Shown here one piece after another: positions 13,261 through 57,980 of a stretch of 64,000 nt of DNA. The notes under the pieces were generated by a model, which had not been told where the DNA came from, ran no database searches, and saw only the letters and a list, made by a program, of their open reading frames with translations. The first letter of the stretch is position 1, and each line of letters opens with the position of its first letter. The stretch is from Stagnihabitans tardus (lineage in GTDB: Bacteria > Pseudomonadota > Alphaproteobacteria > Rhodobacterales > Rhodobacteraceae): assembly GCF_009925085.1 (NCBI RefSeq), contig NZ_JAABNR010000006.1, positions 1-64,000 on the forward strand. The letters run 5' to 3'. A program made the position numbers and the translations under genes.

Positions 13261-13317
13261 TTCATCTGTTCACAAATATCCCACGGGAGGGTCCGGAGGG
13301 GTGTGAAACCCCTCCGG
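13261..13317 (-). repeat. 24-nt dispersed box plus hairpin, 3' of tsf
   Basis: Copy of the dispersed element: TTCATC...CAAATATCCC at 13261-13282, next to a perfect 9-bp stem (CCGGAGGGG/CCCCTCCGG, 13293-13317). In the direction of tsf the order is hairpin then box. The same hairpin, loop included, follows rpsI at 43712-43736. Confidence 0.7.
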
Positions 13318-13322
13318 GCCTG

Positions 13323-13361
13323 CCGCAAAACAAGGGGCCGGAGGTTCGCACCCCCGGCCCC
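13323..13361 (-). terminator. Rho-independent terminator of rpsB-tsf
   Basis: On the minus strand a GGGGCCGG/CCGGCCCC stem (13334-13361) is followed by TTGTTTTG, a typical intrinsic terminator about 20 nt after the tsf stop. Confidence 0.75.
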
Positions 13362-13382
13362 AAATTCGCCCGTCCGAACGAC

Positions 13383-14291
13383 TCAGGCCTGGACCATCTT
13401 GGCCACTTCGGCCGCGAAGTCTTCTTCCTTCTTCTCGACGCCTTCGCCGACCATCACGCGGGCATAGCCGGTGATCTCGACGCCGGCTTCCTTGGCCGCC
13501 GCCTCGACCGTCAGGTCGGGGTTGATGACGAAGGCTTGGCCCAGAAGGGTGTTTTCCGCCAGGAACTTCTTCATCCGGCCCGGGATGATGTTGTTGTGGA
13601 TCACGGCCTCGGGCTTCGGCTTGGCCGAGGAGGCGTTTTCTTCCAGCGCCTTGGCGGTCTGCACGGCCAGCTCACGCTCCACGACCACCGGGTCGAGGGT
13701 CGCTTCCGAGAGCGACAGCGGGTTGGTCGCGGCAATGTGCATGGCGAACTGCTTGCCGATCTCTTCGGCGCGGGCCGCATCGCCGTTCAGCGCGACCAGC
13801 ACGCCGATCTTGCCCATGCCAGCGGTGGCGGCATTGTGGACATAGGAGACGACGGTCGAGCCTTCCAGCACATGCATGCGGCGGAAGTTCAGGTTTTCCC
13901 CGATCCGCGCCACGGCTTCCTGGATGACTTCCTCGACCTTCTTGCCGTTCAGATGCGCGGCCTTGCAGACCTCGACCGATTCGCCGACGGTCAGGGCCAC
14001 ATTGGCCACGTCACGCACCAGCGCCTGGAAATCGGCGTTCTTGGCGACGAAGTCGGTTTCCGAGTTGATCTCGACGGCGACGCCGCGCCCGTTCGACACG
14101 GCCACGCCCACCAGGCCCTCGGCGGCGACGCGGTCGGCCTTCTTGGCGGCTTTCGCCAGGCCCTTGGTGCGCAGCCAGTCCACGGCGGCTTCCATGTCGC
14201 CATTGGTCTCGGTCAGCGCCTTCTTGGCATCCATCATCCCCGCGCCGGTCGATTCGCGCAGTTCCTTCACCATCGCAGCGGTGATCGTCAT
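13383..14291 (-). CDS. tsf: Elongation factor Ts
   Basis: 302 residues, the normal length. EF-Ts, the guanine-nucleotide exchange factor for EF-Tu in translation elongation. The N-terminal UBA-like module ([20 protein letters not shown]) and the conserved exchange motif [10 protein letters not shown] (about residues 76-85) are intact, as are the two core subdomains and the C-terminal module. It follows rpsB by 87 nt on the same strand, the usual rpsB-tsf pair; the gap contains a small GGGGAG/CTCCCC hairpin (14319-14338) that could reduce read-through. A GGAG precedes the ATG. Confidence 0.97.
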
Positions 14292-14378
14292 GTCAGACTC
14301 CAGTCCTTGAAAGGGTCAGGGGAGCCCATAGACTCCCCCGATTTCCGTTTTATGACAGGCCCGATCCCGGGCCAGCCC

Positions 14379-15134
14379 TCAGGCTTCGACGGCTTCTTCA
14401 GCCGGAGCCTCGTCCATGGCACCGAGGTCGATGCCCGCAGCGCCCATCTGGGCCGACATGCCGTCCAGGGCAGCGCGGCTGATCAGGTCGCAATACATGG
14501 CGATGGCGCGCGAGGCGTCGTCGTTGCCGGGGATGATATAGTCCACGCCCTTGGGCGAGCAGTTGGTATCGACCACGCCGACGACCGGGATGCCCAGCTT
14601 CTTGGCCTCGGTGATGGCCAGGGCCTCTTTGCCAACGTCGATGACGAAAAGCAGGTCCGGAACGCCGCCCATGTCGCGGATACCGCCCAGGCTGGCCTGC
14701 AGCTTCTGCTGGTCACGCTCCAGGTTCAGACGCTCTTTCTTGGTCAGGCCCTCGGCGCCCGAGGCCAGGATTTCGTCGATCTGCTTCAGGCGCTGGATCG
14801 AGTTGGAGATGGTCTTCCAGTTCGTCAGCGTGCCACCGAGCCAGCGGTGGTTCATGTAATACTGCGCGCATTTCTCGGCCGATTCGGCGATCGACTTCTG
14901 CGCCTGGCGCTTGGTGCCGACGAAGAGGATGCGGCCGCCCTTGGCGACGGTGTCACGGACCACTTTCAGCGCCGCGTCCAGCATCGGAACGGTCTGGGTC
15001 AGGTCAAGAATATGGATGCCATTGCGGTCGCCATAGATGAACTCGCCCATGCGGGGGTTCCAGCGCGCGGTCTGGTGGCCATAGTGAACGCCAGCTTCCA
15101 AGAGCTGGCGCATGGTGAACTCGGGAAGAGCCAT
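14379..15134 (-). CDS. rpsB: 30S ribosomal protein S2
   Basis: 251 residues. S2 family signatures are clear: [20 protein letters not shown] at the N-terminus, [23 protein letters not shown], and [16 protein letters not shown] with [14 protein letters not shown]2 binds the body of the 30S subunit and recruits S1. The last 25 residues are acidic ([11 protein letters not shown]). First gene of the rpsB-tsf operon. The 159-nt upstream gap must hold the promoter and a leader; I could not identify a defined S2-responsive RNA structure in it. Confidence 0.97.
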
Positions 15135-15293
15135 GCTCGTATCCTTTCCGGTTTGAACCTCGGCCCAAGTGTCTCAGGGTTTCCCCCAACCGGTGGACTG
15201 CATGGGATTTCTCCCCATGAAGCCCCACCTGAGCCTGTGAAGTGCGCCGCCTTTACGCCAGATGCGGCCCTGCTGCAAGGCCTTTTCCCGCAG

Positions 15294-16373
15294 TCAGGGC
15301 GCCTTTGCGCCCCGCAACAGCGCCAGGACCTCGGACTTGGGCCCCATCCGGCTGCCCTCTATCCAGGCGGCCAGGGCGGCGTTATAGGTCTCGTCCCAGG
15401 CCGAGTCCACCCAGTCGCGCATCTCTTCCGCCGAGATCGGTGCCGGGATCGGGGCGGAGGGCGGGCCTTCGCGCAGGCGCAGCGCGGCCCGGAGGGGCTC
15501 GGGGTGGTCCGAACGCGCAAGCATCGCATTCCAGCGCGGCGCGGCATTGGCCTCGAGCCGCGCGCGCCAGGTTTCGGGCAGGGTCAACCGCGGAAAGGCC
15601 AGCCCCGCGCGCTGGATCGCCCCGCGCAACAGGCCAAAGAGCCTTGGGTCGCTTTCGGGGCTGCGCGCTTCGCCCAGCCGCAGCAAGAGCGCCGAGGCCG
15701 CGGCCGGCATGGATTCGTTGGCCCGCAGCGCCCCCCCAAGATCGGGAAGCGCCCGGCCGCAGACCGCCCCGATCCATTGCGCGACATCGGCGGTGACATC
15801 GCCCCCCAGAAGGCTTTGACGCGAAAACACCCGCAGGCGCAGGGCATCCGCGCCATAGATGGTCTCGATCGTCTCCAGCCGGTCGAGGTGGTCGATCAGC
15901 GCCGGGTCGATCTTGTGGCCATAGCGCTTGACCTGCTGCTGGGCGGCCGAGGGGTAATGGTCGGTCACCGGGCGCAGATAGGCCAGGGCCGTGACCTGAA
16001 CCCCATGGCGGGCGAAAAGCGCGGTCAGCCTCTTGCCCCCCGGGGCCGACATCGGATGGGACAGATGCTCTGCCGACAAAAGAACCACGCCGTCGCCATG
16101 GGCGCGGGCCTGGGCGATGGCGGTCTCCAGCGCCAGGGTCACCCGGTCGGCAGCGCCAGGCCCCATATGGCGCAGGCGCTCGGCCAGGTGATGGGCGGGC
16201 GGCAGGCTCTCGGCCCAAAGCGCTGCAAGCTGCCAATGGCCCGCGACCGCGTCCTCCCCGAGGCTCGGATAGAAGAACCCCTCGGCGGCAAGCTTCTCGC
16301 GCCCCTGGGCCAATTGCGCCTGGATCGCGCTGGAGCCTGTCTTCTGCATCCCCAGATGGATGATGGCGCGCAT
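15294..16373 (-). CDS. Sulfotransferase-family protein
   Basis: 359 residues from ATG 16373, preceded by AAGGGGG. The first residues MRAIIHLGMQKTGSSAIQ carry the 5'-phosphosulfate-binding loop (QKTGSS) of PAPS-dependent sulfotransferases, and VTALAYLRPVTDHYPSAAQQQ resembles the 3'-phosphate-binding region (R and S). Such enzymes transfer sulfate from PAPS to sugars or lipids. The acceptor is unknown; with the glycan genes at 1.7-9.4 kb and a second sulfotransferase at 36662-37729, sulfated surface glycan is a reasonable guess. It is a single-gene unit between rpsB and a divergent gene. Confidence 0.75.
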   Translation of the reverse strand: MRAIIHLGMQKTGSSAIQAQLAQGREKLAAEGFFYPSLGEDAVAGHWQLAALWAESLPPAHHLAERLRHMGPGAADRVTLALETAIAQARAHGDGVVLLSAEHLSHPMSAPGGKRLTALFARHGVQVTALAYLRPVTDHYPSAAQQQVKRYGHKIDPALIDHLDRLETIETIYGADALRLRVFSRQSLLGGDVTADVAQWIGAVCGRALPDLGGALRANESMPAAASALLLRLGEARSPESDPRLFGLLRGAIQRAGLAFPRLTLPETWRARLEANAAPRWNAMLARSDHPEPLRAALRLREGPPSAPIPAPISAEEMRDWVDSAWDETYNAALAAWIEGSRMGPKSEVLALLRGAKAP

Positions 16374-16546
16374 GGTCCGGCCCCCTTGCCTGCTGCCGAC
16401 GTGCGGCCCGATCATTGGTCAAATTGCGCGCAAGTCAACGTCCTGCGGCCCCCCGATGCCGCTAGCCGACGCCTGAAGGACGGTTTCCGACCTTGCCTCG
16501 GCCTGCCTTCCGGCTAGAACCGCCTGTGACACGCAGGAGACGCGCG

Positions 16547-18592
16547 ATGAAAGATCTGGATCAAGCCGAGACCACTTCCGATGCCCTGGTGATCTTCACC
16601 CCCTCGGGCAAGCGCGGGCGCTTTGCGCTTGGCACGCCAATCCTGACGGCGGCGCGGCAATTGGGGGTCGACCTGGATTCGGTTTGCGGCGGGCGCGGGA
16701 TTTGCTCGAAGTGCCAGATCCAGCCCTCTTACGGCGAGTTCCCCAAGTTCGGCGTCACGGTCCAGGACGGCGCCCTGACCGAATGGAACGAGGTCGAGGC
16801 GCGCTACAAGCGCATCCGGGGCATGATCGACGGCCGCCGCCTGGGCTGCCAGGCCAAGGTTCAGGGCGATGTGATCGTCGATGTGCCGCCCGAAAGCCAG
16901 GTCCACAAGCAGGTGATCCGCAAGGCGGCCTCGGACCGGGTCATCGCGATGGACCCGGCGACGCGCCTTCTGTTCATCGAGGTCGCCGAGCCCGACATGC
17001 ACGAGCCCACCGGCGATTTCGAGCGCGTCAAGCGCGCGCTGAAGGATCAATGGCAGGTCGAGGGGGTCGAGGCCGATCTGGGCCTTCTGCGCCGCCTGCA
17101 ACCCGCGCTCCGCAAGGGCGAATGGAAGATCACCGTGGCGCTTTACAAGGGCAACCATGATACGTCGCACCGGATCCTGGACCTCTGGCCGGGCTTCCAC
17201 GAGGGTCCGATCCTGGGGCTGGCCATCGACCTGGGCTCGACGACGATTGCCGCCCATCTGTGCGACCTGACCGATGGGCGGGTCCTGAACTCGGCCGGCC
17301 TGATGAACCCGCAGATCCGCTTTGGCGAAGACCTGATGAGCCGGGTGTCCTATGCCATGATGAACCCGGGCGGCGATGTCGAGATGACGACGGCGGTGCG
17401 GGCGGCCATCGACAGCCTGGCCCATACGATCTGCGAAGAGGCCGGGGTTTCGACCCAGGCGCTTTACGAGCTGGTCTTCGTCTGCAACCCGGTCATGCAT
17501 CATCTTCTCTTGGGCATCGACCCGGTCGAACTGGGCCAGGCGCCCTTTGCCCTGGCGACCTCGGGCTCCATGGCTTTCCCGGCCCGTGACCTGAACCTTT
17601 CCAACGTCAATACCTCCGCCCGGGTCTATGTCCTGCCCTGTATCGCCGGTCATGTGGGGGCCGACTGCGCCGCCGTGGCCTTGGCCGAAGAGCCGCAGCA
17701 TTCCGAAGACATGGTCCTGATCGTGGACGTGGGCACCAATGCCGAGATCCTTCTGGGCAACAAGACCAAGGTGCTCGCCTGTTCCTCGCCCACGGGTCCG
17801 GCCTTCGAGGGCGCGCAGATCTCCAGCGGTCAACGCGCCGCCCCCGGCGCCATCGAGCGCATCACCATCGACCCGGTGACCAAGGAGCCGCGCTTCCGCG
17901 TCATCGGTTCCGAACTCTGGTCCGACGAGCCGGGTTTTGCCGAGGCCGTGGGGGCGACGGGTGTGACGGGCATCTGCGGCTCTGGCATCATCGAGGCCGT
18001 GGCCGAGATGCGCATCGCGGGCCTGGTGGACCAGGGCGGCCTGATCGGCGGCCCCGACCAGACCGGCACGGCCCGCTGCGAGGCGGAAGGCCGCACCCAT
18101 GCCTACCTGATCCACGACGGCTCTGCCACGGGCGGGCCCCGGATCACGGTGACGCAAGGCGACATCCGCGCGATCCAGCTCGCCAAGGCCGCGCTTTACG
18201 CGGGGGCCAGGCTCCTGATGGACGAGATGGGCGTGACGACGGTGGACCGCGTGGTCCTGGCGGGGGCCTTCGGCGCCCATATCTCGCCGCGCCATGCCAT
18301 GGTCCTGGGGATGATCCCGGATTGCGAACTGCCCAAGGTCATCTCGGCCGGGAACGCGGCGGGGACGGGGGCGCGGATTGCGCTTTGCAACCGCGCGGCC
18401 CGCGACACGATCGAGGCCGTGGTCCACGAGATCCACAAGGTCGAAACCGCCATCGAGCCGCGCTTCCAGGAGCATTTCGTCAATGCCTCGGCCATCCCCA
18501 ATGCGGTCGATGCCTTCCCGCACCTGGACCCGCTGCCCGAGGTGAGCTTCAACACCAATTCCGGCGCCGAGGGCCGTCGCCGCCGCAGGTAA
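16547..18592 (+). CDS. Ferredoxin-ASKHA protein (corrinoid activation/DUF4445 family)
   Basis: 681 residues. N-terminal 2Fe-2S ferredoxin domain with CGGRGICSKC (Cys47, 53, 56) and a fourth Cys in RRLGCQAK (about 106), then a linker, then an ASKHA ATPase domain (ILGLAIDLGSTTIAAHLCDL, VLIVDVGTNAEILLG, GICGSGIIEAVAEM, VVLAGAFGAHISPRHAM). Proteins of this build (RACE/RamA-like) use ATP to reduce cob(II)alamin to cob(I)alamin in corrinoid methyltransferases. No methyltransferase or corrinoid protein lies nearby, so its partner must be elsewhere. ATG 16547 is preceded by CAGGAGA; the longer frame from 16493 lacks such a site. Followed by a long hairpin. Confidence 0.85.
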   Translation: MKDLDQAETTSDALVIFTPSGKRGRFALGTPILTAARQLGVDLDSVCGGRGICSKCQIQPSYGEFPKFGVTVQDGALTEWNEVEARYKRIRGMIDGRRLGCQAKVQGDVIVDVPPESQVHKQVIRKAASDRVIAMDPATRLLFIEVAEPDMHEPTGDFERVKRALKDQWQVEGVEADLGLLRRLQPALRKGEWKITVALYKGNHDTSHRILDLWPGFHEGPILGLAIDLGSTTIAAHLCDLTDGRVLNSAGLMNPQIRFGEDLMSRVSYAMMNPGGDVEMTTAVRAAIDSLAHTICEEAGVSTQALYELVFVCNPVMHHLLLGIDPVELGQAPFALATSGSMAFPARDLNLSNVNTSARVYVLPCIAGHVGADCAAVALAEEPQHSEDMVLIVDVGTNAEILLGNKTKVLACSSPTGPAFEGAQISSGQRAAPGAIERITIDPVTKEPRFRVIGSELWSDEPGFAEAVGATGVTGICGSGIIEAVAEMRIAGLVDQGGLIGGPDQTGTARCEAEGRTHAYLIHDGSATGGPRITVTQGDIRAIQLAKAALYAGARLLMDEMGVTTVDRVVLAGAFGAHISPRHAMVLGMIPDCELPKVISAGNAAGTGARIALCNRAARDTIEAVVHEIHKVETAIEPRFQEHFVNASAIPNAVDAFPHLDPLPEVSFNTNSGAEGRRRRR

Positions 18593-18599
18593 AGAGAAA

Positions 18600-18634
18600 G
18601 CCGGGCTCGGGGGCATCGAGCCCCCTCGCCCGGC
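18600..18634 (+). terminator. GC-rich hairpin after the ASKHA gene
   Basis: GCCGGGC...GCCCGGC with an inner GGGGGC/GCCCCC stem, starting 7 nt after the stop codon. No U-tract follows, so termination is only inferred. Confidence 0.5.
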
Positions 18635-18730
18635 TGCTGCCGCAGGACCAGGGCCAAAGGGTCGGACGCCGCCCCCGAGCCAGCCGATCACGGCTTTCAA
18701 CGCGCCCCCCAACCCGCGCGCGCCCTGCCT

Positions 18731-18919
18731 CTTTCAACTTGGCACAAATATCCAAACCCCGCGCCCAAGCAGCACCGCCCCGCGCCTTTCATGCTTGCCC
18801 AAATACTCCAGCCCTGCCCCTCGCGCGCCTCACCTCGCCCCTTTCAACTTGGCCCAAATACTCCCGCAGCATCCGCCGCAAGCGCCTCCCTATCCCCTTT
18901 CACACTGGCCCAAATATCC
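18731..18919 (+). repeat. Array of four 23-24-nt repeats with 55/55/56-bp period
   Basis: Four direct copies of CTTTCA + 3-4 nt + TTGGC(C/A)CAAATA(C)TCC at 18731-18753, 18786-18809, 18841-18864 and 18897-18919. Start-to-start distances are 55, 55 and 56 bp; the three spacers are 32, 31 and 32 nt, C-rich and mutually unrelated. The repeats belong to the dispersed family described elsewhere in this list, but only here are they in tandem. The array fills the 470-nt gap between the ASKHA gene and the ECF sigma gene. The last copy continues into CGCCGGAGGCTCCAA, as do copies at 31642 and 57963. Confidence 0.75.
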
Positions 18920-19032
18920 CCGCCGGAGGCTCCAACCGCCCCAGCAGCGCCACGCCCGGCGTTCTCTCCTGCCTCAGGTCCCGCCCAATGCCTTGACGCA
19001 GCCCTGCCTTACGCTACCCTGCCCCCATCGCC

Positions 19033-20234: not shown

Positions 20235-20395
20235 CCGCCGTCCATGGCCACCCGCCCTGGCCGCCCCCCATGACCACGGCTGGACCGGGGCCTTGCCCGC
20301 CATCTCCCTTGGCGCCAGGCGGCCCGCAAGTCGGGCAGCGGCGCCTTCCCCCCCTCCCCAGGCGCAAAGAATCTCGCAGAAATTTTTCGCCCCCC

Positions 20396-20423: not shown

Positions 20424-20473
20424 CCCCTTCAGAGCGACAGGATGAGCCTGCCGCCTTTGACATGGAGATGACG

Positions 20474-27487: not shown

Positions 27488-27543
27488 CCGGGGGACTTCA
27501 CGTCCCCCGGACCCCCTGTGGGATATTTGAGCCAATGTGAAAG
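27488..27543 (+). repeat. Hairpin plus dispersed 24-nt box, 3' of the DUF815 gene
   Basis: CCGGGGGAC/GTCCCCCGG stem (27488-27510) followed by GGGATATTTGAGCC...GAAAG (27520-27543), in the direction of the gene that ends at 27468. The 160 nt up to the mirror copy at 27707 hold no gene I can see. Confidence 0.65.
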
Positions 27544-27706: not shown

Positions 27707-27766
27707 CTTTCATACTGACCCAAATATCCCGGGGGAGGTCTGGAGGGGGCCCGCGGCTCCCTCCAG
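27707..27766 (-). repeat. Hairpin plus dispersed 24-nt box, 3' of the NlpD-like gene
   Basis: Box CTTTCATAC...CAAATATCCC at 27707-27730 on the plus strand and stem CTGGAGGG/CCCTCCAG (27740-27766), 5 nt from the stop of the minus-strand gene. Read from that gene, the order is hairpin then box. Confidence 0.65.
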
Positions 27767-27771: not shown

Positions 27772-28938
27772 TTACTGCAGATAGCTCAGCGGATCGACGG
27801 CCTGTTGTCCCTGGCGGACCTCGAAATGTAGCGTTCCCGCCCGCAGCGTGCCAAGGGCGGCGCCGCGTTTGACCGATGCGCCCTTTTCGACCGATGCGGC
27901 ATCGAGGCCGGCATAGACGGTCAGGAGCCCGCCCTCGTGTTTCAGGATCACGATGGTCGAGCCCGAGCCTGCGTCCTTGGTCACCACGGCGACGGTGCCG
28001 GAGGCGGCGGCCTTGACGGTGGACCCTGCGCCTGCCGCGATGTCGATGCCCTGGTTGGACTTGGCGTCATAGGGTTTGATGATCTTGCCTTCGACCGGCA
28101 TGGCCATGGCGGCCGCCGAGGCCGAGGTCCGCCCGCTCCCGAGGTCGGGCGCGGCCTGGCCGCTGGCGGCGGCCTGGGCGGCGGTCACGGTGGTCTCGTT
28201 CGGCAGGGGGGCGCTGGCCGAGGGCGGCAGGGGCGTGGGCGAGCCCTGGCCCGGCATGGTCTCGGTCACGCCGCCACGCGCCAGGTCGGCGGCGGTCGGG
28301 ATGATCAGGTATTGGCCCTCGCGCACGGAAAGGTCGGAGGGCAGGCTGTTCCAGTCTGCCAGGGCCTTGGCCGAGATGTTGAACTGCCGGGCGATGGTGA
28401 AGGCGGTCTCGCCGCGCTTGACCTGGTAGCGCACCGGGACCGGGCCCGAGCCCGTGGAGGAAAACGGCACCTGGCCCGCGGGTTGCGCAGCGGCGGCAGG
28501 CGCGCCCGAACGGTCGATGGCGGTGGAGGCGATGGCCTCGACATCGATCCCGCCGGTGGCCACCCCGGCGCCAGGCATCGCGGCCCCCGGCAAGGTCGCG
28601 GGGCTGGCCGCAACGCGGACCGGCAGGGCGAGGATCTCGCCGTCGCGCAGGGCATCGGTGGGCGACAAGGCGTTGAACCGCGCCAGTTGATCGGGCGCCA
28701 CGCCGACCCGGGCCGCGACCGAGGCCACGGTGTCCCCGCGCCGCGCCACGGCGACCTGGTAGCCGGGATAGGAAATGATCCCCCGCGCATCGGGCGAGGG
28801 CCGGGCCGAGACCGATTGCGCGGCACCCGAGGTGCCGCCATTGGTCCTCAGGTCCCAATCCAGCGCGCCGGTGTTCACGCATCCCTGCAAAGCCAAAGCT
28901 GCCAGCACGAACCCGGCCTTGCCGCCCCTGATCATCAT
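27772..28938 (-). CDS. nlpD: NlpD-like lipoprotein: LysM domains plus M23 peptidase-like domain
   Basis: 388 residues from ATG 28938 (MMIRGGKAGFVLAALALQGC), a lipoprotein signal with lipobox LQGC; an in-frame ATG at 28953 is also possible. Two LysM peptidoglycan-binding modules (VAVARRGDTVASVAARVGVAPDQLARFNALS; YQVKRGETAFTIARQFNISAKALADWN), Ala/Pro-rich linkers, and a C-terminal M23 domain (GKIIKPYDAKSNQGIDIAAGAGS...TIVILKHEGGLLTVYAGL...LHFEVRQGQQAVDPLSYL). The LytM zinc ligands look incomplete (no HxH at the usual end: LHFEV only), as in EnvC/NlpD amidase activators. Probably an activator of cell-division amidases. Downstream of surE-pcm. Confidence 0.85.
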   Translation of the reverse strand: MMIRGGKAGFVLAALALQGCVNTGALDWDLRTNGGTSGAAQSVSARPSPDARGIISYPGYQVAVARRGDTVASVAARVGVAPDQLARFNALSPTDALRDGEILALPVRVAASPATLPGAAMPGAGVATGGIDVEAIASTAIDRSGAPAAAAQPAGQVPFSSTGSGPVPVRYQVKRGETAFTIARQFNISAKALADWNSLPSDLSVREGQYLIIPTAADLARGGVTETMPGQGSPTPLPPSASAPLPNETTVTAAQAAASGQAAPDLGSGRTSASAAAMAMPVEGKIIKPYDAKSNQGIDIAAGAGSTVKAAASGTVAVVTKDAGSGSTIVILKHEGGLLTVYAGLDAASVEKGASVKRGAALGTLRAGTLHFEVRQGQQAVDPLSYLQ

Positions 28939-28963
28939 CCTACCCCGTTTCATCCCAAAACAC

Positions 28964-29605
28964 TCAGTCGGCCGCCAAGCCCTCGACCAGGGGCACGAAG
29001 CGCACTGGCCGCAATTCCTCGTAGTCATAGCCGCTGTCCAGCCGCCGCACCTTGATCAGGCTTTGCACCGCATCGGACTGGCCCACCGGCACGACCATGA
29101 TACCGCCGGTCTTCAGCTGCGCCAAGAGCGGGCCGGGCGGGTCCTCGGCCGCGGCGGTCACGATGATTTTATCGAAAGGCGCCTGGTCGGGCAGGCCATG
29201 GGAGCCGTCGCCGGTCTGGGCGGTGATGTTCACCAGGCCCAGGTCGCGGAACACCGCTTCGGCCTCGCGCACCAGGGTCCGGTGGCGGTCAATCGTATAG
29301 ACCCTTCGGCACAGAAGCGAGAGGATCGCCGCCTGGTAACCAGAGCCGGTGCCGACCTCCAGCACCTTGTCGCGCGGTTGCAGGTCCAGGGCCTGGGTCA
29401 TCAGCCCCACGACCGAGGGCTGGCTGATCGTCTGGCCGCAGGCGATGGGCAGGGGCACGTCCTCATGGGCACGGGTCGCAAAGATGCCGCGCAGGAAGAG
29501 GCCACGGTCGATGCGCTCCATCGCGTCCAGCACCCGGGGGTTGGTGATCCCCTGGGAGCGCAGCGCGAAGAGAAAGCGCATCTTGCGGGTGGCCTCGTCT
29601 TCCAT
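28964..29605 (-). CDS. pcm: Protein-L-isoaspartate O-methyltransferase
   Basis: 213 residues. SAM-binding motif [18 protein letters not shown] (about 82-99), upstream [17 protein letters not shown] and downstream [13 protein letters not shown] are PCMT family features. The enzyme methylates isoaspartyl residues so that aged proteins can be repaired, in the cytosol. The start at 29605 overlaps the surE stop by one base (TGATG). Order surE, pcm, nlpD is the classic stress-survival cluster. Confidence 0.93.
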
Positions 29606-31612: not shown

Positions 31613-31709
31613 CTTTCATACTGGGCTCAAAACTGGGCTCAAATATCCCCGCCGGAGGCTCCAATCGCAGAAAAGAGCCTCCGGCGGGGATATTTCGACC
31701 AAGTTGAAA
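31613..31709. terminator. Bidirectional hairpin with paired dispersed boxes
   Basis: Perfect 20-bp inverted repeat (31642-31661 with 31675-31694, 13-nt loop) between convergent genes, flanked on each side by a dispersed 24-nt box facing outward (31613-31649 and 31687-31709). The left box carries a perfect 12-bp tandem duplication (31620-31631 and 31632-31643). Confidence 0.7.
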
Positions 31710-32786
31710 TCAGGCCGGGAAGACGAAGCAGCGGTCGCGGCGGATCATCAGCCAGAGCGCGGTCCCGGGCTTGGGCAGGAAGACCCCGGGCACGGCGGCG
31801 GTGAGGGTGGAGCCGTCGTGGTCCATGCGGAACTCCACCAGGCTCTCGTGCCCCAGGAACCGCGCCCGGGTGACGAGACCGCGGGCGGCGGTGCCATCCT
31901 GGATCGTCGGATTGGGGCCGCGCCCGGCCCGGTCGAAGTCGATCTTCAGATGCTGCGGGCGGATGACGATATCGACCGCTGCCCCGTCCGTCTGACCCGG
32001 CGTCAGGAAGGCGCCAAAGGGCGTCTGGGTCAGGGCGCCGCGCGACTGGCCCCGGATCACGTTGATATCGCTGAAGAAGGCCGCCGCAGCCCGGTCGACG
32101 GGGGCGTTGTATACATTGTAAGGCGCGCCCCTTTGCACGATGACCCCATCGCGCATCAGGGCGATCTCATCGGCCATCCGCATGGCCTCGCCCGGCTCAT
32201 GGGTCACCAGGACCACCGCTGTCCCCTCTTCCTTCAAGAGGTCCAGCGTCGCATCCCGGATGCCATCCCGCAGCCGGTTGTCCAGCCCCGAAAAGGGCTC
32301 GTCCATCAGCATGACACGGGGGCGCGGCGCCAGGGCCCGGGCCAGCGCCACCCGCTGCTGCTCGCCCCCCGAAAGCTCATGCGGATGCTTGGCCTGAAAG
32401 CCCGAGAGATTGACCCGCTCCAAAAGCTCATCGACCCGGGCCGCCCGCCCCTCCCCCTTGCGCAGCCCGAAGGCCACGTTCTGCGCCACGGTCAGATGCG
32501 GGAACAGGGCGAAGTCCTGGAACATCAGCCCCACGCCCCGCGCCTCGGGCGGCAAGCGGACCCCGGGGCCAAAGACCTCCTCGCCGTCGATCAGGATGCG
32601 CCCCTGGTCAGGCTCCTCGACCCCCGCCACCATGCGCAAGGTCGTCGACTTGCCGCAGCCCGAGGGCCCAAGCAGGCAGGTCAACTGCCCCGCCTCGACG
32701 ACCAGCGACAGGTCCCGCACCACGGCCCGGCCCCCGAAGGACCGGCTGACGTTTTGCACGACCAGGCGAGGCTTGTGGGACTGCAT
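31710..32786 (-). CDS. Importer-type ABC ATPase with TOBE domain, orphan (FbpC/PotA-like)
   Basis: 358 residues from ATG 32786 (AAGG upstream; ATG 32801 is an alternative). Walker A LLGPSGCGKSTT, signature LSGGEQQRVALARAL, Walker B VMLMDEPFSGLD, H-loop VTHEP, and a C-terminal regulatory/TOBE region (VDIVIRPQHLKIDF onward). It resembles ATPases of Fe3+, thiamine or polyamine importers. No permease or binding-protein gene is adjacent, so its partners must be encoded elsewhere. A 390-nt gap with no gene (32787-33176) lies upstream. Confidence 0.8.
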   Translation of the reverse strand: MQSHKPRLVVQNVSRSFGGRAVVRDLSLVVEAGQLTCLLGPSGCGKSTTLRMVAGVEEPDQGRILIDGEEVFGPGVRLPPEARGVGLMFQDFALFPHLTVAQNVAFGLRKGEGRAARVDELLERVNLSGFQAKHPHELSGGEQQRVALARALAPRPRVMLMDEPFSGLDNRLRDGIRDATLDLLKEEGTAVVLVTHEPGEAMRMADEIALMRDGVIVQRGAPYNVYNAPVDRAAAAFFSDINVIRGQSRGALTQTPFGAFLTPGQTDGAAVDIVIRPQHLKIDFDRAGRGPNPTIQDGTAARGLVTRARFLGHESLVEFRMDHDGSTLTAAVPGVFLPKPGTALWLMIRRDRCFVFPA

Positions 32787-33074: not shown

Positions 33075-33098
33075 CTTTCATCTTTTCCCAAATATCCC
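33075..33098 (-). repeat. Dispersed 24-nt box, 3' of the histidine kinase
   Basis: CTTTCATC...CCCAAATATCCC on the plus strand, about 80 nt beyond the stop of the minus-strand kinase gene, next to GC-rich inverted repeats (GGCCGCC...GGCCCGG and GGGGGAGGC...GCCTCCCCCC, 33104-33157). Confidence 0.6.
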
Positions 33099-33176
33099 AG
33101 AGGGGGAGGGCCGCCCTGCGCGGCCCGGGGGAGGCAGCGCCTCCCCCCAAAGCATCTCTTGCGAAGCTCCGCTGGA

Positions 33177-43677: not shown

Positions 43678-43736
43678 CTTTCACCTTGGCACAAATATTC
43701 CACGGGGAGGTCCGGAGGGGTGTGAAACCCCTCCGG
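43678..43736 (-). repeat. Dispersed 24-nt box plus hairpin, 3' of rpsI
   Basis: Box CTTTCACC...CAAATATTCC at 43678-43701 and a CCGGAGGGG/CCCCTCCGG stem at 43712-43736, identical in sequence and loop to the hairpin after tsf. Confidence 0.7.
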
Positions 43737-47576: not shown

Positions 47577-47703
47577 CGAAGCGCGGGGGGGGCACACTCC
47601 CGCACCCAAGCGAAGAGCGGGGGTTTCACACCCCCGCACCCACACGAAGAGCGGGGGTTTCACACCCCCGCACCCCCGTGGGATATTTGAGCCAATGTGA
47701 AAG
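47577..47703 (+). repeat. Three 34-bp hairpin repeats plus dispersed box, 3' of dksA
   Basis: Three tandem units of 34 bp (47577-47610 degenerate, 47611-47644, 47645-47678). The last two each hold a GCGGGGG-TTTCACA-CCCCCGC hairpin (47617-47637 and 47651-47671). The dispersed box GGGATATTTGAGCC...GAAAG follows at 47680-47703. Candidate multi-hairpin terminator or processing region. Confidence 0.7.
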
Positions 47704-52208: not shown

Positions 52209-52265
52209 GGGGGAGCCTCGTGCGACCTGCGCAGGCGGAACCCCCGGGGCGCTGCCCCGGACCCC

Positions 52266-52289
52266 GGGATATTTATGAAAAGATGAAAG
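52266..52289 (+). repeat. Dispersed 24-nt box in the gap before the DedA gene
   Basis: GGGATATTTATG...GATGAAAG, preceded by a CCCCGGGGCGCTGCCCCGG-type hairpin (about 52241-52260), 3' of the gene ending at 52208. The remaining gap to 52572 is GC-rich and holds no gene I can support. Confidence 0.6.
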
Positions 52290-52572: not shown

Positions 52573-53175
52573 ATGACCGACTGGCTCCTGGCCCTGGTGC
52601 CGACCTGGGGCGTCTGGCTCATGGCCCTTGCGACCTTCTTCTCCTGCCTCGCCCTGCCCGTCCCCTGTTCCGTCCTGATGCTGACGGCCGGGGGCTTCGC
52701 GGCGGCCGGAGACCTTGACCTTGGCGCCCTGCTCATGGGCTCGCTGGCCGGGGCGGTGGCGGGGGATCAGACGGGCTACCGGCTTGGGCGGCTTGGCGGG
52801 CAACCCCTCCTCGCGCGGCTGGCGCGCAACCCGACGCGCGCGGCGCTTTTGGACCGCGCCGCCCGGCTGATGGAGACCAGGGGCGCGCCGGGCATCTTCT
52901 TCACCCGCTGGCTCTTCGCCCCGGTCGGACCTTACGCCAATTTCACCGCCGGGGCGCTGGGCTGGTCCTGGACGCGCTTCACGCTTTGGGGCGTCCTGGG
53001 AGAGGCCGTCTGGGTCGGGCTTTACTGCGGCCTCGGCTATGGCTTTGCCGGCAATATCCAGGCCGCCACCGACTATGCGGGCTCGCTTCTGGGCATCCTC
53101 GCAGGCCTCGCCGCCATGGGAGCCGCCGCCTGGTGGCTGGTCAACAGCCTCAGGCAAGAGCGCGCCAAGGGCTGA
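52573..53175 (+). CDS. DedA-family membrane protein
   Basis: 200 residues from ATG 52573 (GGAGGGAGGG upstream). Family features: LALPVPCSVLMLTAGGFAAAGDLDL near the start, GDQTGYRLGRLGG, and TRWLFAPVGPYANFTAGALGWSWTRF with the conserved Arg; four or more membrane helices. DedA proteins are membrane lipid transporters or scramblases and affect envelope integrity. A hairpin and dispersed box follow between this gene and the convergent PIN gene. Confidence 0.85.
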   Translation: MTDWLLALVPTWGVWLMALATFFSCLALPVPCSVLMLTAGGFAAAGDLDLGALLMGSLAGAVAGDQTGYRLGRLGGQPLLARLARNPTRAALLDRAARLMETRGAPGIFFTRWLFAPVGPYANFTAGALGWSWTRFTLWGVLGEAVWVGLYCGLGYGFAGNIQAATDYAGSLLGILAGLAAMGAAAWWLVNSLRQERAKG

Positions 53176-53190
53176 ACCACGCCCTCTTCC

Positions 53191-53238
53191 AATTCATCTT
53201 TTCATAAATATCCCGGGGGTCTGGGGGCTGGCCCCCAG
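53191..53238 (-). repeat. Dispersed 24-nt box plus hairpin between convergent genes
   Basis: Box AATTCATC...AAATATCCC at 53191-53214 and CTGGGGGC/GCCCCCAG stem at 53221-53238, 6 nt from the stop of the minus-strand PIN gene. Confidence 0.6.
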
Positions 53239-53244
53239 TCAACC

Positions 53245-53787
53245 TCACCCCTCCAGCGCCTTGGAGAGCCGCCAAAGCTGCGCCTTCTTCAAAAGCCGCT
53301 TCAGGGGGATCTCCTCGCCCGCCATCTGGCAGGCCCTGGCATGGACGCCCGCCACCACCGCGCCGACCTCGGCGGGGTGATGCGACCAGAGCTCCCACAG
53401 GAAGCCATCCGGGTCGCGGCGGTCGAGCCCGTGATCGGCCAGAACGGGGCGCGGGAAGTCCTGGGCGTTGAAGGTCACGATCGCATCGGCATGGCCGCCG
53501 ATCGCCACGGCCAGGACATGGTCGTCATTCGGATCGGGCAGCGAGAGGCGCGCCTCGATATTGGGCTGTTCCCGCACCAGGGCGCGGGGGAAGGCGGCTT
53601 TCACCATCAGGGCCTCGCCCTCGGCCAGGGCCTGGGCTTCGGGGCCGATCTTCGCCGTGGCCAAGGTCCATTCGCGCAGGATGCGGTCTGACACCAGGGG
53701 CTCGTAAAGCCCGCGTGCCGCGACGCCCAGAAGGATCTCGCGCAGCACGGATGGGTAAAGCACGCAGGCGTCGAGGACGGCTCTCAT
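53245..53787 (-). CDS. PIN-domain protein, coupled to an rRNA methyltransferase
   Basis: 180 residues from ATG 53787. PIN acidic residues are visible: D7 in MRAVLDACVLYPS, E in DRILREWTLA, and D/D in DPNDDHVLAVAIGGHADAIVTFNAQDF. PIN domains are metal-dependent RNases, most known from VapC toxins. No antitoxin gene is adjacent; instead the start overlaps the stop of the methyltransferase gene by one base, so the two are co-translated. The C-terminal 45 residues are helical and basic. A toxin role is not supported; an RNA-processing role with the methyltransferase is a guess. Confidence 0.75.
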   Translation of the reverse strand: MRAVLDACVLYPSVLREILLGVAARGLYEPLVSDRILREWTLATAKIGPEAQALAEGEALMVKAAFPRALVREQPNIEARLSLPDPNDDHVLAVAIGGHADAIVTFNAQDFPRPVLADHGLDRRDPDGFLWELWSHHPAEVGAVVAGVHARACQMAGEEIPLKRLLKKAQLWRLSKALEG

Positions 53788-55022
53788 CAGTCCAGCCGGA
53801 AGAACAGCGCCTTCAGGTAAGCGCTTTCGGCCAGGTGCGGCAGCATCGGGTGATCGGGGCCGGCGAACCCGGTGTGGATCAGCTGGCTCCGGCGCCCTGC
53901 CCGCCCGATCCCGCGCGAGGAGGCATTGCGGAAAGCCTGCAAATCGGCCGCATGGCTGCAGGAACAAAGCCCCAGGTAGCCGCCCGGTGCCACCAGGGCC
54001 GCAGCCCCCCGCGCCACGCGCTCATAGGCGCGAAGTCCCGCCTCGAGGGCCGGTTTGGCGGGGGCGAAGGCGGGCGGGTCGCAGATCACCAGGTCGAACT
54101 GGGCACCCTCGGCGGCCAGCATCTCCATCACGTCGAAGGCATCGCCCTGGCGGGTCGAGAAACCGCTGAAACCCGCAGCCCTTGCGCCCTCTTCGGCCAG
54201 GCCCAGGGCGGCGGCCGAGGCATCGACGGCCAGGGCCGAAACCGCGCCGCCCGCCAGCGCCGCCAACCCGAAACCGCCAACATGGGAGAAGACGTCCAGC
54301 ACCCGCGCGCCCTTGGCCATCCTTGCGGCAAAGGCGTGATTCGGGCGCTGGTCATAGAAGAGCCCGGTCTTCTGCCCGCCCATCAGGTCGGCCATATAGA
54401 CCGCACCATTCATCGGCACAGGCACCGGGGCCGAGACCCCGCCCTGGACCACGACCATCTCTTCCGCCAACCCCTCCAGCACCCGAGACCGGCCCGAGCC
54501 GTTCTTGATCACGGTCGAAACCCCGGTGACCTGGACCAGGGCCGCGACCAGGGGCTCCAGGTGAGCTTCGGCCCAGGCGGCATTGGGCTGGACCACCACG
54601 GCGTCGCCGAAACGGTCGATGACGATGCCGGGCAGTCCATCGGCCTCGGCATGGACAAGGCGGTAATGGGCCGTGTCATGCAGCTTTTCGCGCAGGGCCA
54701 GGGCCTTGGCGATGCGGGTGGCGAACCAGGCCTGGTCGATCACGGCCAGGGGGTCGCGGTCCAGCATCCTTGCGATGATCTTGGACTTGGTGTTGACGGT
54801 CACCAGCCCCAGGGGCCGCCGCTCGCCATCCTCGAGGACGGCCAGAGCCCCGGGCTCCAACCCTTGGGTGCGGCGGTCGGTCACCAGCTCGTCGGCATAG
54901 ACCCAAGGGAAGCCATGCCTGATGGCCCGCGCATCCCCCTTGGGGCGCAGGCGCACGACCGGGCGGTCGCCATAGGGACGGGTTTGGGGCTTTTGCGGGT
55001 CGGTGTCAGAAGAGGGGCTCAT
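53787..55022 (-). CDS. rlmI: RlmI-like SAM-dependent rRNA methyltransferase
   Basis: 411 residues. N-terminal PUA domain (VVRLRPKGDARAIRHGFPWVYADEL), EEHD-type middle region (ADGLPGIVIDRFGD), then the methyltransferase domain: FYDQRPNHAFAARMAKGARVLDVFSHVGGFGLAALAGGA and VICDPPAFAPAKPALEAG, with LGLCSCSHAADL near the end. This is the RlmI/RlmK family, which makes m5C at 23S rRNA position 1962 in E. coli. Specificity is inferred. Followed by a coupled PIN gene. Confidence 0.85.
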   Translation of the reverse strand: MSPSSDTDPQKPQTRPYGDRPVVRLRPKGDARAIRHGFPWVYADELVTDRRTQGLEPGALAVLEDGERRPLGLVTVNTKSKIIARMLDRDPLAVIDQAWFATRIAKALALREKLHDTAHYRLVHAEADGLPGIVIDRFGDAVVVQPNAAWAEAHLEPLVAALVQVTGVSTVIKNGSGRSRVLEGLAEEMVVVQGGVSAPVPVPMNGAVYMADLMGGQKTGLFYDQRPNHAFAARMAKGARVLDVFSHVGGFGLAALAGGAVSALAVDASAAALGLAEEGARAAGFSGFSTRQGDAFDVMEMLAAEGAQFDLVICDPPAFAPAKPALEAGLRAYERVARGAAALVAPGGYLGLCSCSHAADLQAFRNASSRGIGRAGRRSQLIHTGFAGPDHPMLPHLAESAYLKALFFRLD

Positions 55023-55061
55023 GCGCCCCCCTTTAGTCGCTTGCCAGGCTTTGCGAAAGCC

Positions 55062-55739
55062 TTATTGGATCAGGCCCAGGTCCGAGGGCTGGAAGGCGTT
55101 GCGGCTGACCGCAGCCTCGGCGCCCGGCAGGACGATGCGCCGCGACAACTCGCGCTGGAAGACGCCCGAGACATGGTCGACGATGACCATGCGCTGGGTG
55201 ATGCCAGCCGCCTCTTCCTCCATCGCACGCTGCCCGCCCGAGGCCGGGCAATCGGCCACCACGATCCGGGGCCCGTCGATCACCGCACCCGAGCGCGCAT
55301 CGCGCACCGTCAACAGGAAGCGGGTCGCGAAATTGCCGCCGAAGGTATAGCGCGCCTTGGGAGTCAGGGCGTGAAAGCGCATGATCTCGACCTGCACCGT
55401 GACCGGCGTGCCGCTGTGCATTCCCGCCGTGCCGCGCTGGGCCGCCTCGGTCATGATCGAGCGGACCTGCTCGTAGCGGTCGCCCAGCCTGTCGCCATGC
55501 CAGACGATATCGGCGCGCGGCACATAGGTGTTCTCTTCCGAGACCCGCAGGCTGCGCGGCACGATCACATCGAGCCGCGTCACATTGTAGGAAGCCGCGA
55601 CCGGAACCTGTCCCGCCTCGCCCCCGATGAGCCCGGTGACGGCGCTTGCCGTCCCCGCGCTCCGGCTGACCACTTGTCCTGCGTCGCACCCGGCCAGCGC
55701 CAAAGCCGCCACCAGTGCCAGACCTGCCTTCAACTTCAT
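55062..55739 (-). CDS. Lipoprotein of unknown function (DUF6778-like)
   Basis: 225 residues from ATG 55739, preceded by GGAGGG. Signal peptide with lipobox LALAGC (Cys18). Body: VTRLDVIVPRSLRVSEENTYVPRADIVWHGD, then YTFGGNFATRFLLTVRDARSGAVIDGPRIVVADCP. This pattern is common in Rhodobacterales lipoproteins, likely outer-membrane or periplasmic; the role is unknown. It ends just upstream of the rRNA methyltransferase on the same strand (40 nt). Confidence 0.7.
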   Translation of the reverse strand: MKLKAGLALVAALALAGCDAGQVVSRSAGTASAVTGLIGGEAGQVPVAASYNVTRLDVIVPRSLRVSEENTYVPRADIVWHGDRLGDRYEQVRSIMTEAAQRGTAGMHSGTPVTVQVEIMRFHALTPKARYTFGGNFATRFLLTVRDARSGAVIDGPRIVVADCPASGGQRAMEEEAAGITQRMVIVDHVSGVFQRELSRRIVLPGAEAAVSRNAFQPSDLGLIQ

Positions 55740-55896
55740 CTCACAGCCCTCCGGCTTTTCCATTGGCCTCAACTTGGCGGGGGAATATGGCCGAATTTGG
55801 TAAATTTGCGCACATCTTCGCGGTGATCCCGGGGCTGATGCCTTGCAGGGGGCGCTTGGCGCGGGCAGGATGGGCCTTGGCGCGGAATTGGGTATT

Positions 55897-55908
55897 GTTA
55901 GCGCTAAC
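55897..55908. promoter_or_regulatory. LacI-family operator at the edd promoter
   Basis: GTTAGCGCTAAC is a perfect 12-bp palindrome (within TTGTTAGCGCTAACGG) with the central CG typical of LacI/GalR-family operators. It lies 40 nt before the edd start, overlapping the probable promoter (TGCTAT at 55915-55920 as -10). No LacI gene is in the window. Confidence 0.65.
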
Positions 55909-55947
55909 GGCCCTTGCTATCATGGGCGGCGTAACCAAGAGGACATC

Positions 55948-57753
55948 ATGGCGCTGCATCCGACCCTGGCCCGCGTGACCGACCGCATCCGCAAACGCTC
56001 TGAGCGCAGCCGGGGCGATTACCTGGACCGCATGGGCGCGGCCCATCAAAAGGGCGCGGTGCGTGCGCATCTGTCCTGCGGCAACCAGGCCCATGCCTAT
56101 GCGGCGATGACCCAGGACAAGGCGGCGCTGGCCGAGGGGCGGGCGACCAACATCGGCATCGTGACCGCCTATAACGACATGCTCTCGGCCCATCAACCCT
56201 ATGAGCATTACCCCGAGCTGATCCGTTCGACCGCGCGCCGGCTTGGGGCGACCGCCCAGGTCGCGGGTGGGGTTCCGGCCATGTGCGACGGGGTCACCCA
56301 AGGCCAGCCGGGGATGGAGATGTCGCTCTTCTCCCGCGATGTCATCGCCATGGCGGCCGGAATCGCCATGAGCCACAACACCTTTGACAGCTCGCTCTAC
56401 CTTGGCGTCTGCGACAAGATCGTGCCGGGCCTGATCATCGCGGCGGCCACCTTCGGCCATATCCCGGCGGTCTTCGTCCCCGCGGGCCCGATGTCGACCG
56501 GCCTGCCGAATGAAGAGAAGAGCCGCGTCCGCAATGCCTTCGCCGCCGGTGAAGTCGGGCGCGAGGCGCTGATGGCGGCCGAGATGGCCAGCTACCACGG
56601 CATCGGCACCTGCACCTTCTACGGCACGGCCAATACCAACCAGATGCTGATGGAGTTCATGGGGCTCCACCTGCCCGGGTCTTCCTTCGTGAACCCCGGC
56701 ACGCCGCTGCGCGAGGCGCTGACCATCGCCGCCGTCGAACGCGCCGCCGCGATCAGCGCGCTCGGCAACGACTACCGCCCGGCCGGAGAGATCCTGGACG
56801 AACGCGCCTATGTGAATGGCCTCGTCGGTCTGATGGCCACGGGGGGCTCGACCAACCTGGTCCTGCACCTGCCTGCCATGGCCCGGGCCTCGGGCGTGCT
56901 CCTCGACCTCGAGGATTTCGAGGATATCTCCCAGGCCGTGCCCTTGCTGGCCAAGGTCTATCCGAACGGCATGGCCGACGTGAACCATTTCCATGCCGCA
57001 GGGGGCCTGGGCCTTCTGATGCGCGAGCTGATGGATGCGGGGCTTTTGCATGAGGATGCGAAAACCGTGATGGGCGAGGGGCTGCAAGCCTATCGCCGCG
57101 AGCCCAAGCTGGTCATGGGCCGCCTGACCTGGGCCGATGGCGCGAAAGAGAGCCTGAACGACAAGATCGTCCGCCCCGTCTCGGCGCCCTTTGCGGCGAC
57201 CGGGGGCCTGAAGCAGCTTGCGGGCAACCTGGGGCGCGGGGTGATCAAGGTCTCGGCCGTGGCGCCCGAGCGTCACGTGATCGAGGCCCCGGCCCGCGTC
57301 TTTCACAGCCAGGACGCCGTGAAGGCCGCCTTCAAGGCAGGCGAGTTCACCGGGGACACGGTGGTCGTCGTCCGCTTCCAGGGGCCCCAAGCCAATGGCA
57401 TGCCCGAACTGCACTCCCTGACCCCCCTGCTGTCGATCCTGCAGGACAAGGGCTACAAGGTGGCGCTGGTGACCGATGGCCGCATGTCAGGCGCCTCTGG
57501 CAAGGTCCCCGCCGCGATCCACGTGGCTCCCGAGGCCGCCGCCGGTGGCCCCCTCGCCCGGGTGCAGGACGGTGATATGCTTCGCCTCGACGCCGTGGCC
57601 GGCACGCTGAGCGTCCTGGCCGAGGACTTCGAGAGCCGGACACCCGCCGAGGCCGACCTCTCTGCCAACCAATACGGCCTCGGCCGCGAACTCTTCGCAA
57701 CCTTCCGCGCCCGCGTGGGCAATGCGACGGAAGGGGCCAGTTCCCTGTTCTGA
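55948..57753 (+). CDS. edd: 6-phosphogluconate dehydratase
   Basis: 601 residues. Edd signatures: [51 protein letters not shown] with a cluster Cys, CDKIVPG, and [27 protein letters not shown]. It is a [4Fe-4S] enzyme that dehydrates 6-phosphogluconate to KDPG in the Entner-Doudoroff pathway. Start at ATG 55948 with AAGAGGA upstream; the frame could extend to 55843 but would cover the operator. eda follows 271 nt downstream on the same strand, with an inverted-repeat pair in between. Confidence 0.95.
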
Positions 57754-57778
57754 AGCGGGAACATTGTTTGAAATGTGC

Positions 57779-57980
57779 GCCTCCGGCGGGGATATTTTAA
57801 CAAGTATGAAAGGAATCAGGGTTAACGATTGAAGTGCGGTACAGGCGGGGACGCCGATGACCGACAAGTGTGAAAGGCCCCCCTTCTCCCCCGCGCAAGC
57901 GGCCCGAGTTGGGGGGTCAACACCGCTCTTCGACCTCTGCTTTTCTCTTTCATACTTGCCCAAATATCCCCGCCGGAGGC
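57779..57980. repeat. Inverted pair of dispersed boxes between edd and eda
   Basis: An 18-nt arm at 57779-57796 and its perfect complement at 57963-57980 enclose 166 nt. Each arm is attached to a dispersed box (57789-57812 and 57947-57970, reverse and forward). The enclosed part has no supported gene. The first box follows the edd stop as expected for a 3' element; the second precedes eda. Confidence 0.7.

Follow-up and report, generated by a model that had tools for sequence, protein, structure and literature searches.

A dispersed gene-end box in Stagnihabitans tardus and other Rhodobacterales as the possible distal part of a triple-helix pseudoknot element

A short box recurs near gene 3' ends in the first 64,000 nucleotides (nt) of contig NZ_JAABNR010000006.1 of Stagnihabitans tardus (the window; the 4.59-Mb genome that contains it is here called G000), and sequence comparison suggests that it may be the distal part of a dispersed structured element, in which one strand would fold as a triple-helix pseudoknot, perhaps serving as a two-way boundary at gene ends; the probability given to this reading is about 0.45. 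At the level of sequence, a three-way covariation between the two arms of a hairpin and a downstream pyrimidine tract, a covariation between the hairpin loop and a short tail, placement at gene ends and a lineage dialect of the box are demonstrated, and the covariation fits a pseudoknot with a triple helix.

The architecture was classed by eye in 82 boxes of G000 aligned on GGATATTT. In about two thirds of them the box-sense strand reads, in order, a hairpin (S1), usually one A, a pyrimidine tract (L3), a tail of 2-6 nt, GGATATTT and a purine-rich half, as in CTGGAGAGGGC-gcc-GCCCTCTCCAG-A-CCTCTCCC and CCGGGGAGGT-ttcac-ACCTCCCCGG-A-CCCCTCC-GT; the elements of the window span 46-60 nt. The 5' arm of S1 is purine and the 3' arm pyrimidine, and L3 complements the 5' arm in the same direction and so mirrors the 3' arm. 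The distance from the end of S1 to TATTT is about 7-14 nt, with L3 in this gap, and is longer where, as in some copies, a second hairpin intervenes between the 3' arm and L3. The distal half of the box is lineage-specific and purine-rich, and ends in GAAAG. The original prediction, which placed a GC-rich hairpin before the box, is borne out for about two thirds of the 82 boxes, but about 16 belong to a second class (class B), with a near-invariant GCCTCCGGCG immediately 5' of GGGATATTT and without the long hairpin and L3, and about 11 have no hairpin or an irregular one, all judged by eye; class B boxes are present in the genomes G094 and G150 too. The hairpin sequence is indeed variable, as had been noticed, and this variation is concerted, since the hairpin, the pyrimidine tract after it and the loop and tail covary.

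The box occurs far above chance. At up to two mismatches TTGGCCCAAATAT is found at 11 places in the window, against 0.54 expected and a maximum of 3 in 100 shuffles, and in G000 both TTGGCCCAAATATCCC (91 places at up to one mismatch) and the longer box pattern GGGATATTTNNNNCAANNTGAAAG (174 matches at up to one mismatch) contrast with reversed patterns that give 0. The box was first taken to be selected by itself, but the idea that it alone is the unit is not supported; a stand-alone signal was rejected because about two thirds of the G000 copies share the same upstream architecture. A recognisable box stands at all 16 positions first reported for the window, although the copies vary and those within two mismatches of TTGGCCCAAATAT amount to the 11 places given above: the box at 31613 carries an insertion, those at 13261 and 53191 terminate in GAATT and not in GAAAG, and those at 18786 and 18841 read AAATACTCC. 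A scan of the window with Rfam covariance models at gathering thresholds returned one tRNA as its sole match, and no family at the boxes.

The evidence for a third strand comes from the way in which L3 follows the 5' arm. In 149 genomes of the order, inferred to be Rhodobacterales from the named carriers, the parallel form GGAGGGG-N3..9-CCCCTCC-N1..5-CCTCCCC occurs at 61 places in 13 genomes of 8 genera (reversed control, 4), against 1 place (reversed control, 2) for the direct-repeat form, which has CCCCTCC in the last position instead; on this comparison, the idea that L3 is another antiparallel strand with which the 5' arm can pair was rejected. Contiguous stretches of G000, G094, G052, G133, G098 and G087, the last four chosen because the parallel pattern already showed there, supplied 194 distinct asymmetric purine-arm hairpins, and an exact parallel complement follows 23 of them (permuted mean 3.4, maximum 10), most of these in G000, whereas direct repeats follow 3 (permuted mean 2.7). 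An overlapping 6-mer scan, with 51 parallel and 24 direct copies among 390, is less clean because symmetric arms such as GGGAGGG score as both, and symmetric arms were excluded from later tests. In pure-G arms the relation is kept in length: across 93 distinct elements the lengths of the G-run and C-run correlate with r=0.68 (permuted maximum 0.38), and the two runs are equal in 70% of the elements (permuted mean 39%).

The correspondence can also be followed base by base, in two sets to which loci retrieved for different purposes contributed. The first comprises 171 distinct elements, aligned at their inner end with no choice of register: L3 has C 831 times, A 20 times and T 17 times opposite G, and T 35 times, A 43 times and C 21 times opposite A; within A-containing arms the probability of T given A is 0.35, against a permuted maximum of 0.25 and 0.14 in the reversed register. 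For the second set, 49 distinct A-containing arm/L3 pairs, the register was fixed on G-C agreement alone, a choice that favours the counts opposite G but does not favour those opposite A; here G is matched by C at 252 of 255 positions, and A by T at 26, by A at 36 and by C at 4 of 66 positions; where the A is flanked by G (G-A-G), the counts are T 19, A 9 and C 1, and the fraction of T or A opposite A reaches 0.94, against a permuted maximum of 0.75. The frequency of A, and the rarity of C, at positions opposite A speak against a pyrimidine-motif triplex (C+.G-C, U.A-U). This three-strand covariation, which to our knowledge is rarely seen, recurs over many loci and several genera, so that the code of a putative triple helix would be readable from genomes alone.

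The second covariation links the hairpin loop with the tail of the same element. For 29 distinct loops of at least 5 bases, the Watson-Crick score between each loop and its own tail is 69, compared with a permuted mean of 48 and maximum of 65, and none of 10,000 permutations attains it. Tails starting with GTG go with the loops TTTCACA, CTTCACG, CACG, CCACGG, CCCACGGG, GCCACGG and TAGCACGCTC, while CTTTGCG and TTTTGCA go with the tail GCA, and CTTCGCG with GCG. Both covariations bear on a reading as double-stranded H-DNA, known from pyrimidine mirror repeats adjoining their purine complement, in which the 3' arm and L3 would make up the mirror repeat and the hairpin would be incidental. The two tracts are mirror images in the listed class A elements, and mirror symmetry alone would suffice; nevertheless, the inverted repeat and the loop-tail pairing are additionally conserved, neither being needed by H-DNA (stems are perfect in 103 of 159 anchored hairpins, a set that includes some spurious ones), and the mirror halves are in some copies kept apart by a further hairpin; this reading is considered very improbable.

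The copies in the window are the following.

13259..13317, minus strand: element 3' of tsf, with S1 CCGGAGGGGT/ACCCCTCCGG, loop TTCAC, L3 A-CCCTCCC, tail GTGG and box GATATTTGTGAACAGATGAATT.
18731..18920, minus strand: row of four boxes (18731, 18786, 18841, 18897) with a period of 55-56 nt; S1 was found for none, and the last is class B.
27488..27543, plus strand: element with S1 CCGGGGGAC/GTCCCCCGG, loop TTCAC, L3 A-CCCCCT parallel to GGGGGA, tail GTGG and box.
27707..27766, minus strand: element at the 3' end of an M23-peptidase-like gene, with S1 CTGGAGGG/CCCTCCAG, a large loop, L3 A-CCTCCCCC and box.
31613..31649, minus strand: class B box GCCTCCGGCG-GGGATATTT with its insertion 5' of TGAAAG, adjoining the 3' end of dusA.
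31687..31710, plus strand: class B box, tail-to-tail with the 31613 copy, the pair sharing an inverted repeat of GAGCCTCCGGCGGGGATATTT and its complement.
33075..33126, minus strand: irregular element, in which a G-rich hairpin comes first, then the hairpin found (GGGCCGC/GCGGCCC) and then the last pyrimidine tract, with box end GATGAAAG.
43678..43736, minus strand: element past the canonical rpsI terminator, with S1 CCGGAGGGGT/ACCCCTCCGG, loop TTCAC, L3 A-CCTCCCC, tail GTGG and box.
47651..47703, plus strand: element 3' of dksA, with S1 GCGGGGGT/ACCCCCGC, loop TTCAC, L3 A-CCCCC, tail GTGG and box.
52244..52289, plus strand: element with S1 CCGGGGC/GCCCCGG, loop GCT, L3 A-CCCC, tail GG and box GATATTTATGAAAAGATGAAAG.
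53191..53238, minus strand: element with S1 CTGGGGG/CCCCCAG, loop CCAG, L3 A-CCCCC, tail GG and box end GAATT.
57789..57812, plus strand: class B box after edd (phosphogluconate dehydratase).
57947..57970, minus strand: class B box in the tandem region of the 57789 copy, which it faces; it is antisense to the predicted gene on either side.

The row of four boxes on one strand at 18731-18920 lies inside a 1-kb stretch without a confident gene call.

Relative to genes, which were called by a purpose-written gene finder with region-type and strand counts summed over seven genomes, the elements are densest in convergent regions (74 in 65.8 kb, 1.13 per kb), less dense in tandem regions (94 in 189.8 kb, 0.50 per kb) and rare in divergent ones (14 in 94.6 kb, 0.15 per kb, 10 of the 14 in G154). 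Eleven window copies had been reported beyond a stop codon in the same orientation; among the 14 score-passing boxes 9 are so placed, but 4 follow an opposite-strand gene and 1 lies inside a doubtful open reading frame. The 82 boxes of G000, drawn from 864 kb that include the window, comprise 56 after a same-strand gene, 22 after an opposite-strand gene and 4 inside predicted genes, and the stop-to-box distance is at most 110 nt for 47 of the 56. Gene ends of G000 carry an element in 0 of 265 cases where the tandem gap is at most 30 nt, in 5 of 97 where it is 31-100 nt and in 17 of 129 where it is longer, and in 37 of 212 convergent ends. Conservation of position near gene 3' ends has thus been upheld, but that of direction has not, the tandem elements being 48 sense and 46 antisense (25/18 in G000, 10/18 in G154, 4/3 in G094 and 9/7 in the other four genomes); of the two genome-wide biases on which the original prediction was staked, the strand bias is absent in tandem regions and the position bias is present. 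When ten genes next to antisense copies were checked with Pfam, nine matched a family on the strand predicted for them, and the tenth, of 110 amino acids, matched none. One element lies in a region of 103 nt between apparently co-transcribed genes for an Rrf2 regulator and a class V aminotransferase.

The same gene end compared across genomes indicates a patchy presence. The 3' end of the M23-peptidase-like gene (27772-29028 in the window), read by eye in 16 genomes of the same genus, bears an intact element in 6, a partial or decayed one in 4 and none in 6; the intact hairpins are GGGGG/CCCCC, GGAGGGG/CCTCCCC, GGAGGG/CCTCCC (twice), GGAGGG/CCACCC and that of the window, so that six elements represent five hairpin/L3 versions, one of them with A opposite A. 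At the convergent neighbour of this gene the hairpin is GGGGGA/CCCCCT in G000 and GGGGAGG/CCCCTCC in G154. In a set of 21 genomes assembled for rpsI (G000 and 20 picked from 120 others, one stretch being short), the stop codon is directly followed by a canonical hairpin and T-tract in nearly all, as read by eye. The element has therefore come and gone at these orthologous ends, and it does not act as the main terminator at rpsI. A reciprocal BLAST comparison of G000 and G154 gave 15 ortholog pairs, none of them listed with a box.

These data also bear on a further alternative, an ordinary one-direction intrinsic (Rho-independent) terminator of the preceding gene in which TATTT is a poor U-tract. 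Such terminators likewise place a GC-rich hairpin together with T-rich sequence at the ends of genes, and the closeness of the 47 sense copies to their stops, as well as the absence of elements from the shortest tandem gaps and their frequency at convergent ends, would be expected of one. The reading is already strained, however, and is held to be improbable: the hairpin stands about 7-14 nt before TATTT with L3 and the tail in between, the T-rich stretch is just TATTT, canonical terminators occur in the same genomes and precede the element at rpsI, and the base-by-base match of L3 and arm is left unexplained. Moreover, the strand is not tied to the preceding gene in tandem regions, and therefore the description as terminator of the preceding gene is at best partial and a one-direction transcript role is weakened. 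A transcript-end signal, as first proposed, is possible, but it is not the whole story in view of the antisense tandem copies, the co-transcribed-looking genes and the copy past the rpsI terminator. Rho-independent terminators are discussed for Rhodobacteraceae in PMC5089854.

Elements are frequently paired. Among 275 elements, pairs at most 200 nt apart are 25 head-to-head, 3 tail-to-tail and 8 on the same strand, a scan that missed the tail-to-tail pair of the window (31613/31687), and the span is 55-64 nt in 10 of the 25 head-to-head pairs. Ten pairs of G151, fetched for being pairs, all span 61-63 nt, an eleventh, wider pair on contig C16 being left out of this set. A span of 60-63 nt was measured for four pairs from G020, G035 and G150, with one more G020 pair left out of the measurement. 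The head-to-head pairs L273-L284, L286 and L287, from four genomes that belong to several genera, are uniform in total span (60-63 nt) despite differing spacers. The constant span looks as if two bound partners, or two polymerases, must fit.

In the triple-helix pseudoknot proposed here, one strand would fold so that L3 lies as the third strand of a triple helix ending exactly at GGATATTT, and the tail would pair with the hairpin loop and lock the fold. Far less certain, and speculative, is the function: the compact knot at gene ends might present a physical boundary to RNA polymerase or to a 3' exonuclease arriving from either side, hence the frequent head-to-head pairs, and the GAAAG half might be read by a lineage-specific protein, for which the box dialects offer a handle. 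If the element marks transcript ends or blocks decay, the annotation of 3' ends in these bacteria would change. A wider version of the proposal, somewhat less probable than the core reading, sees an order-wide gene-end module with a coevolved triple-helix code and a loop-tail lock, folding as single-stranded DNA or as RNA, and acting either as a two-way boundary or as the form in which a new class of mobile element is recognised.

Several observations weigh against the folded gene-end element as proposed. When wobble pairs are allowed, the loop-tail test becomes weaker (93 against 76.9, with 3 of 10,000 permutations); the loops CTGTCTG, CTTTCCG and CTGTCCG have the tail GAG, with one mismatch, the loop ACCCACGGGGC occurs with the tail GGGA, and 3-nt loops allow just 2-3 pairs. 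The class B boxes and those at 18731-18841 are without such a hairpin. In 400 kb of G094 the parallel complement follows 0 of 54 scanned asymmetric purine arms, the arms listed for this genome being pure G. Tandem elements are balanced between the strands (48 and 46), whereas canonical terminators in the same scan of the seven genomes are 88 sense and 34 antisense, and the box past the canonical rpsI terminator is present in just 4 of the 21 genomes (G000, G020, G052 and G088). Finally, of 7 plasmid copies, 5 of them with gene tables, 2 are sense, 2 are antisense to both neighbours and 1 lies in an annotation gap.

The evidence on which molecule folds is divided. RNA of the box sense is favoured by the additional wobbles that GUGGGA could form with UUUCAC, and by the way in which sense copies cluster near stops; DNA, or the opposite strand, is favoured by the lack of a tandem strand bias, by the purine-motif code obtained on the other strand and by a count of departures. 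For 272 distinct elements, 1,166 triples are consistent, and departures affect the 5' arm 10 times, L3 7 times, the 3' arm once and another place once, in a count whose register was chosen for agreement, which includes 30 loci fetched by the parallel pattern and in which at least 3 of the ten 5'-arm cases have a doubtful register. The opposite trend is seen among the one-mismatch matches listed for GGGGGTTTCACACCCCCNNACCCCCGTGG, with two changes of C to T in the 3' arm and none of G to A in the 5' arm. Stem mismatches over all anchored hairpins, which are partly spurious, are A.C or C.A in 18 cases against G.T or T.G in 4.

The most serious competitor, which is nonetheless judged unlikely, is a mobile or selfish element resembling the repetitive extragenic palindromic (REP) sequences, in which the opposite strand would fold as single-stranded DNA into a purine-motif triplex (G.G-C, A.A-T or T.A-T), a putative enzyme recognising the folded strand and the box would spread the element, and gene ends would merely tolerate its insertion. 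The code of C opposite G and T or A opposite A equals, on the other strand, that of the antiparallel purine-motif third strand, a triplex that needs no protonation, and of the three tracts the one that tolerates fewest departures is the 3' arm, to which the central purine strand would be complementary; the missing tandem strand bias, the patchy presence at rpsI, the lineage dialects of the box and the occurrence of copies within one mismatch of a single variant in 73 of 140 genera point in the same direction. Nevertheless, the 10-to-1 arm count is small and subject to the register and sampling effects given above, the ways in which hairpins, loops and box types are combined are many, which does not resemble a set of copies made from one master, and the possible GUGGGA/UUUCAC wobbles make more sense in box-sense RNA. 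The Y1 transposase (PF01797) was not found in G000 or in 7 of 8 other genomes, with a match in G020, so the known spreader of REP sequences is missing from G000; were the element nevertheless spread as folded DNA, it would be a REP-like element without the known REP transposase.

Whatever the folding strand, the distribution behaves like that of REP sequences and bacterial interspersed mosaic elements (BIMEs), with many copies near gene 3' ends that come and go between species. REP and BIME of enterobacteria and pseudomonads are short, intergenic and placed at gene 3' ends, often in inverted pairs, and combine GTAG with a palindrome. The present element shares with them the short, dispersed intergenic copies near gene 3' ends that are rare between divergent genes, the frequent inverted pairs and the lineage-specific versions; it differs in the third tract with a base-by-base code and the loop-tail pairing after the hairpin, in having GGATATTT where REP has the GTAG tetranucleotide (according to the element lists, no dedicated GTAG search having been made) and in the rarity of the REP-associated tyrosine transposase (RAYT), with 0 in G000 and a match in 1 of 9 genomes.

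Among other known systems, pseudoknots with triple helices occur in telomerase RNA and at the 3' end of MALAT1. The H-type triple-helix pseudoknots of the SAM-II, SAM-V and guanidine-III riboswitches likewise have a loop that pairs with a downstream tail and a loop strand along the stem, but in the present element the third strand would accompany the G-rich stem over its full length and shows covariation across many loci, and the copies lie downstream of genes, ligand sensing being not evident so far. DNA uptake sequences placed in terminators, the subject of PMC1852404, are also short lineage-specific motifs near gene ends, whereas the present box is distinct from the hairpin and seldom falls within genes (4 of 82). 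No description of the element was found among the matches listed in searches of the open-access literature, a scope that is weak evidence of novelty.

Across the order, the longer box pattern GGGATATTTNNNNCAANNTGAAAG is matched in 25 of the 149 genomes, and the matches listed show lineage variants of the second half (CCAGAATGAAAG, GCAAGAGGAAAG and CCAAAGTGAAAG), with GGGATATTT mostly unchanged; even the 16 genomes of one genus range from 0 to 186 box matches each and differ in dialect. At up to one mismatch GGGGGTTTCACACCCCCNNACCCCCGTGG is found in 133 of 390 genomes and 73 of 140 genera of the order (reversed control, 0), and a slightly looser version in 0 of 285 genomes of the class outside the family, 289 having been drawn, 235 of which meet the completeness and contamination marks, with matches in G000 and G002 only. 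A scan of named genomes with a related pattern returned 57 stretches, many from Rhodobacterales (Tabrizicola, Cypionkella, Paracoccus, Fuscovulum, Palleronia and Sulfitobacter), the others being labelled, with the labels taken as given, Exiguobacterium, Prevotella, Hyphomicrobiaceae and others. Record CP059262.1, labelled Exiguobacterium profundum, holds several elements (L139, L149, L160, L161, L167, L178 and L179), and since the G+C content at these loci is 65-69%, the label may be wrong. Two loci of lower G+C content, L154 and L192 (37% and 50%; labelled Neisseriales and Prevotella), have the hairpin pattern without the GGATATTT context and are probably due to chance. Phages gave no match to one 38-base query, and plasmid records with the element number 17, from Paracoccus (15), Gemmobacter (1) and Thalassococcus (1). 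On the Thalassococcus plasmid pS3A an element (L299) lies between the annotated genes bchY and bchZ, which are normally co-transcribed.

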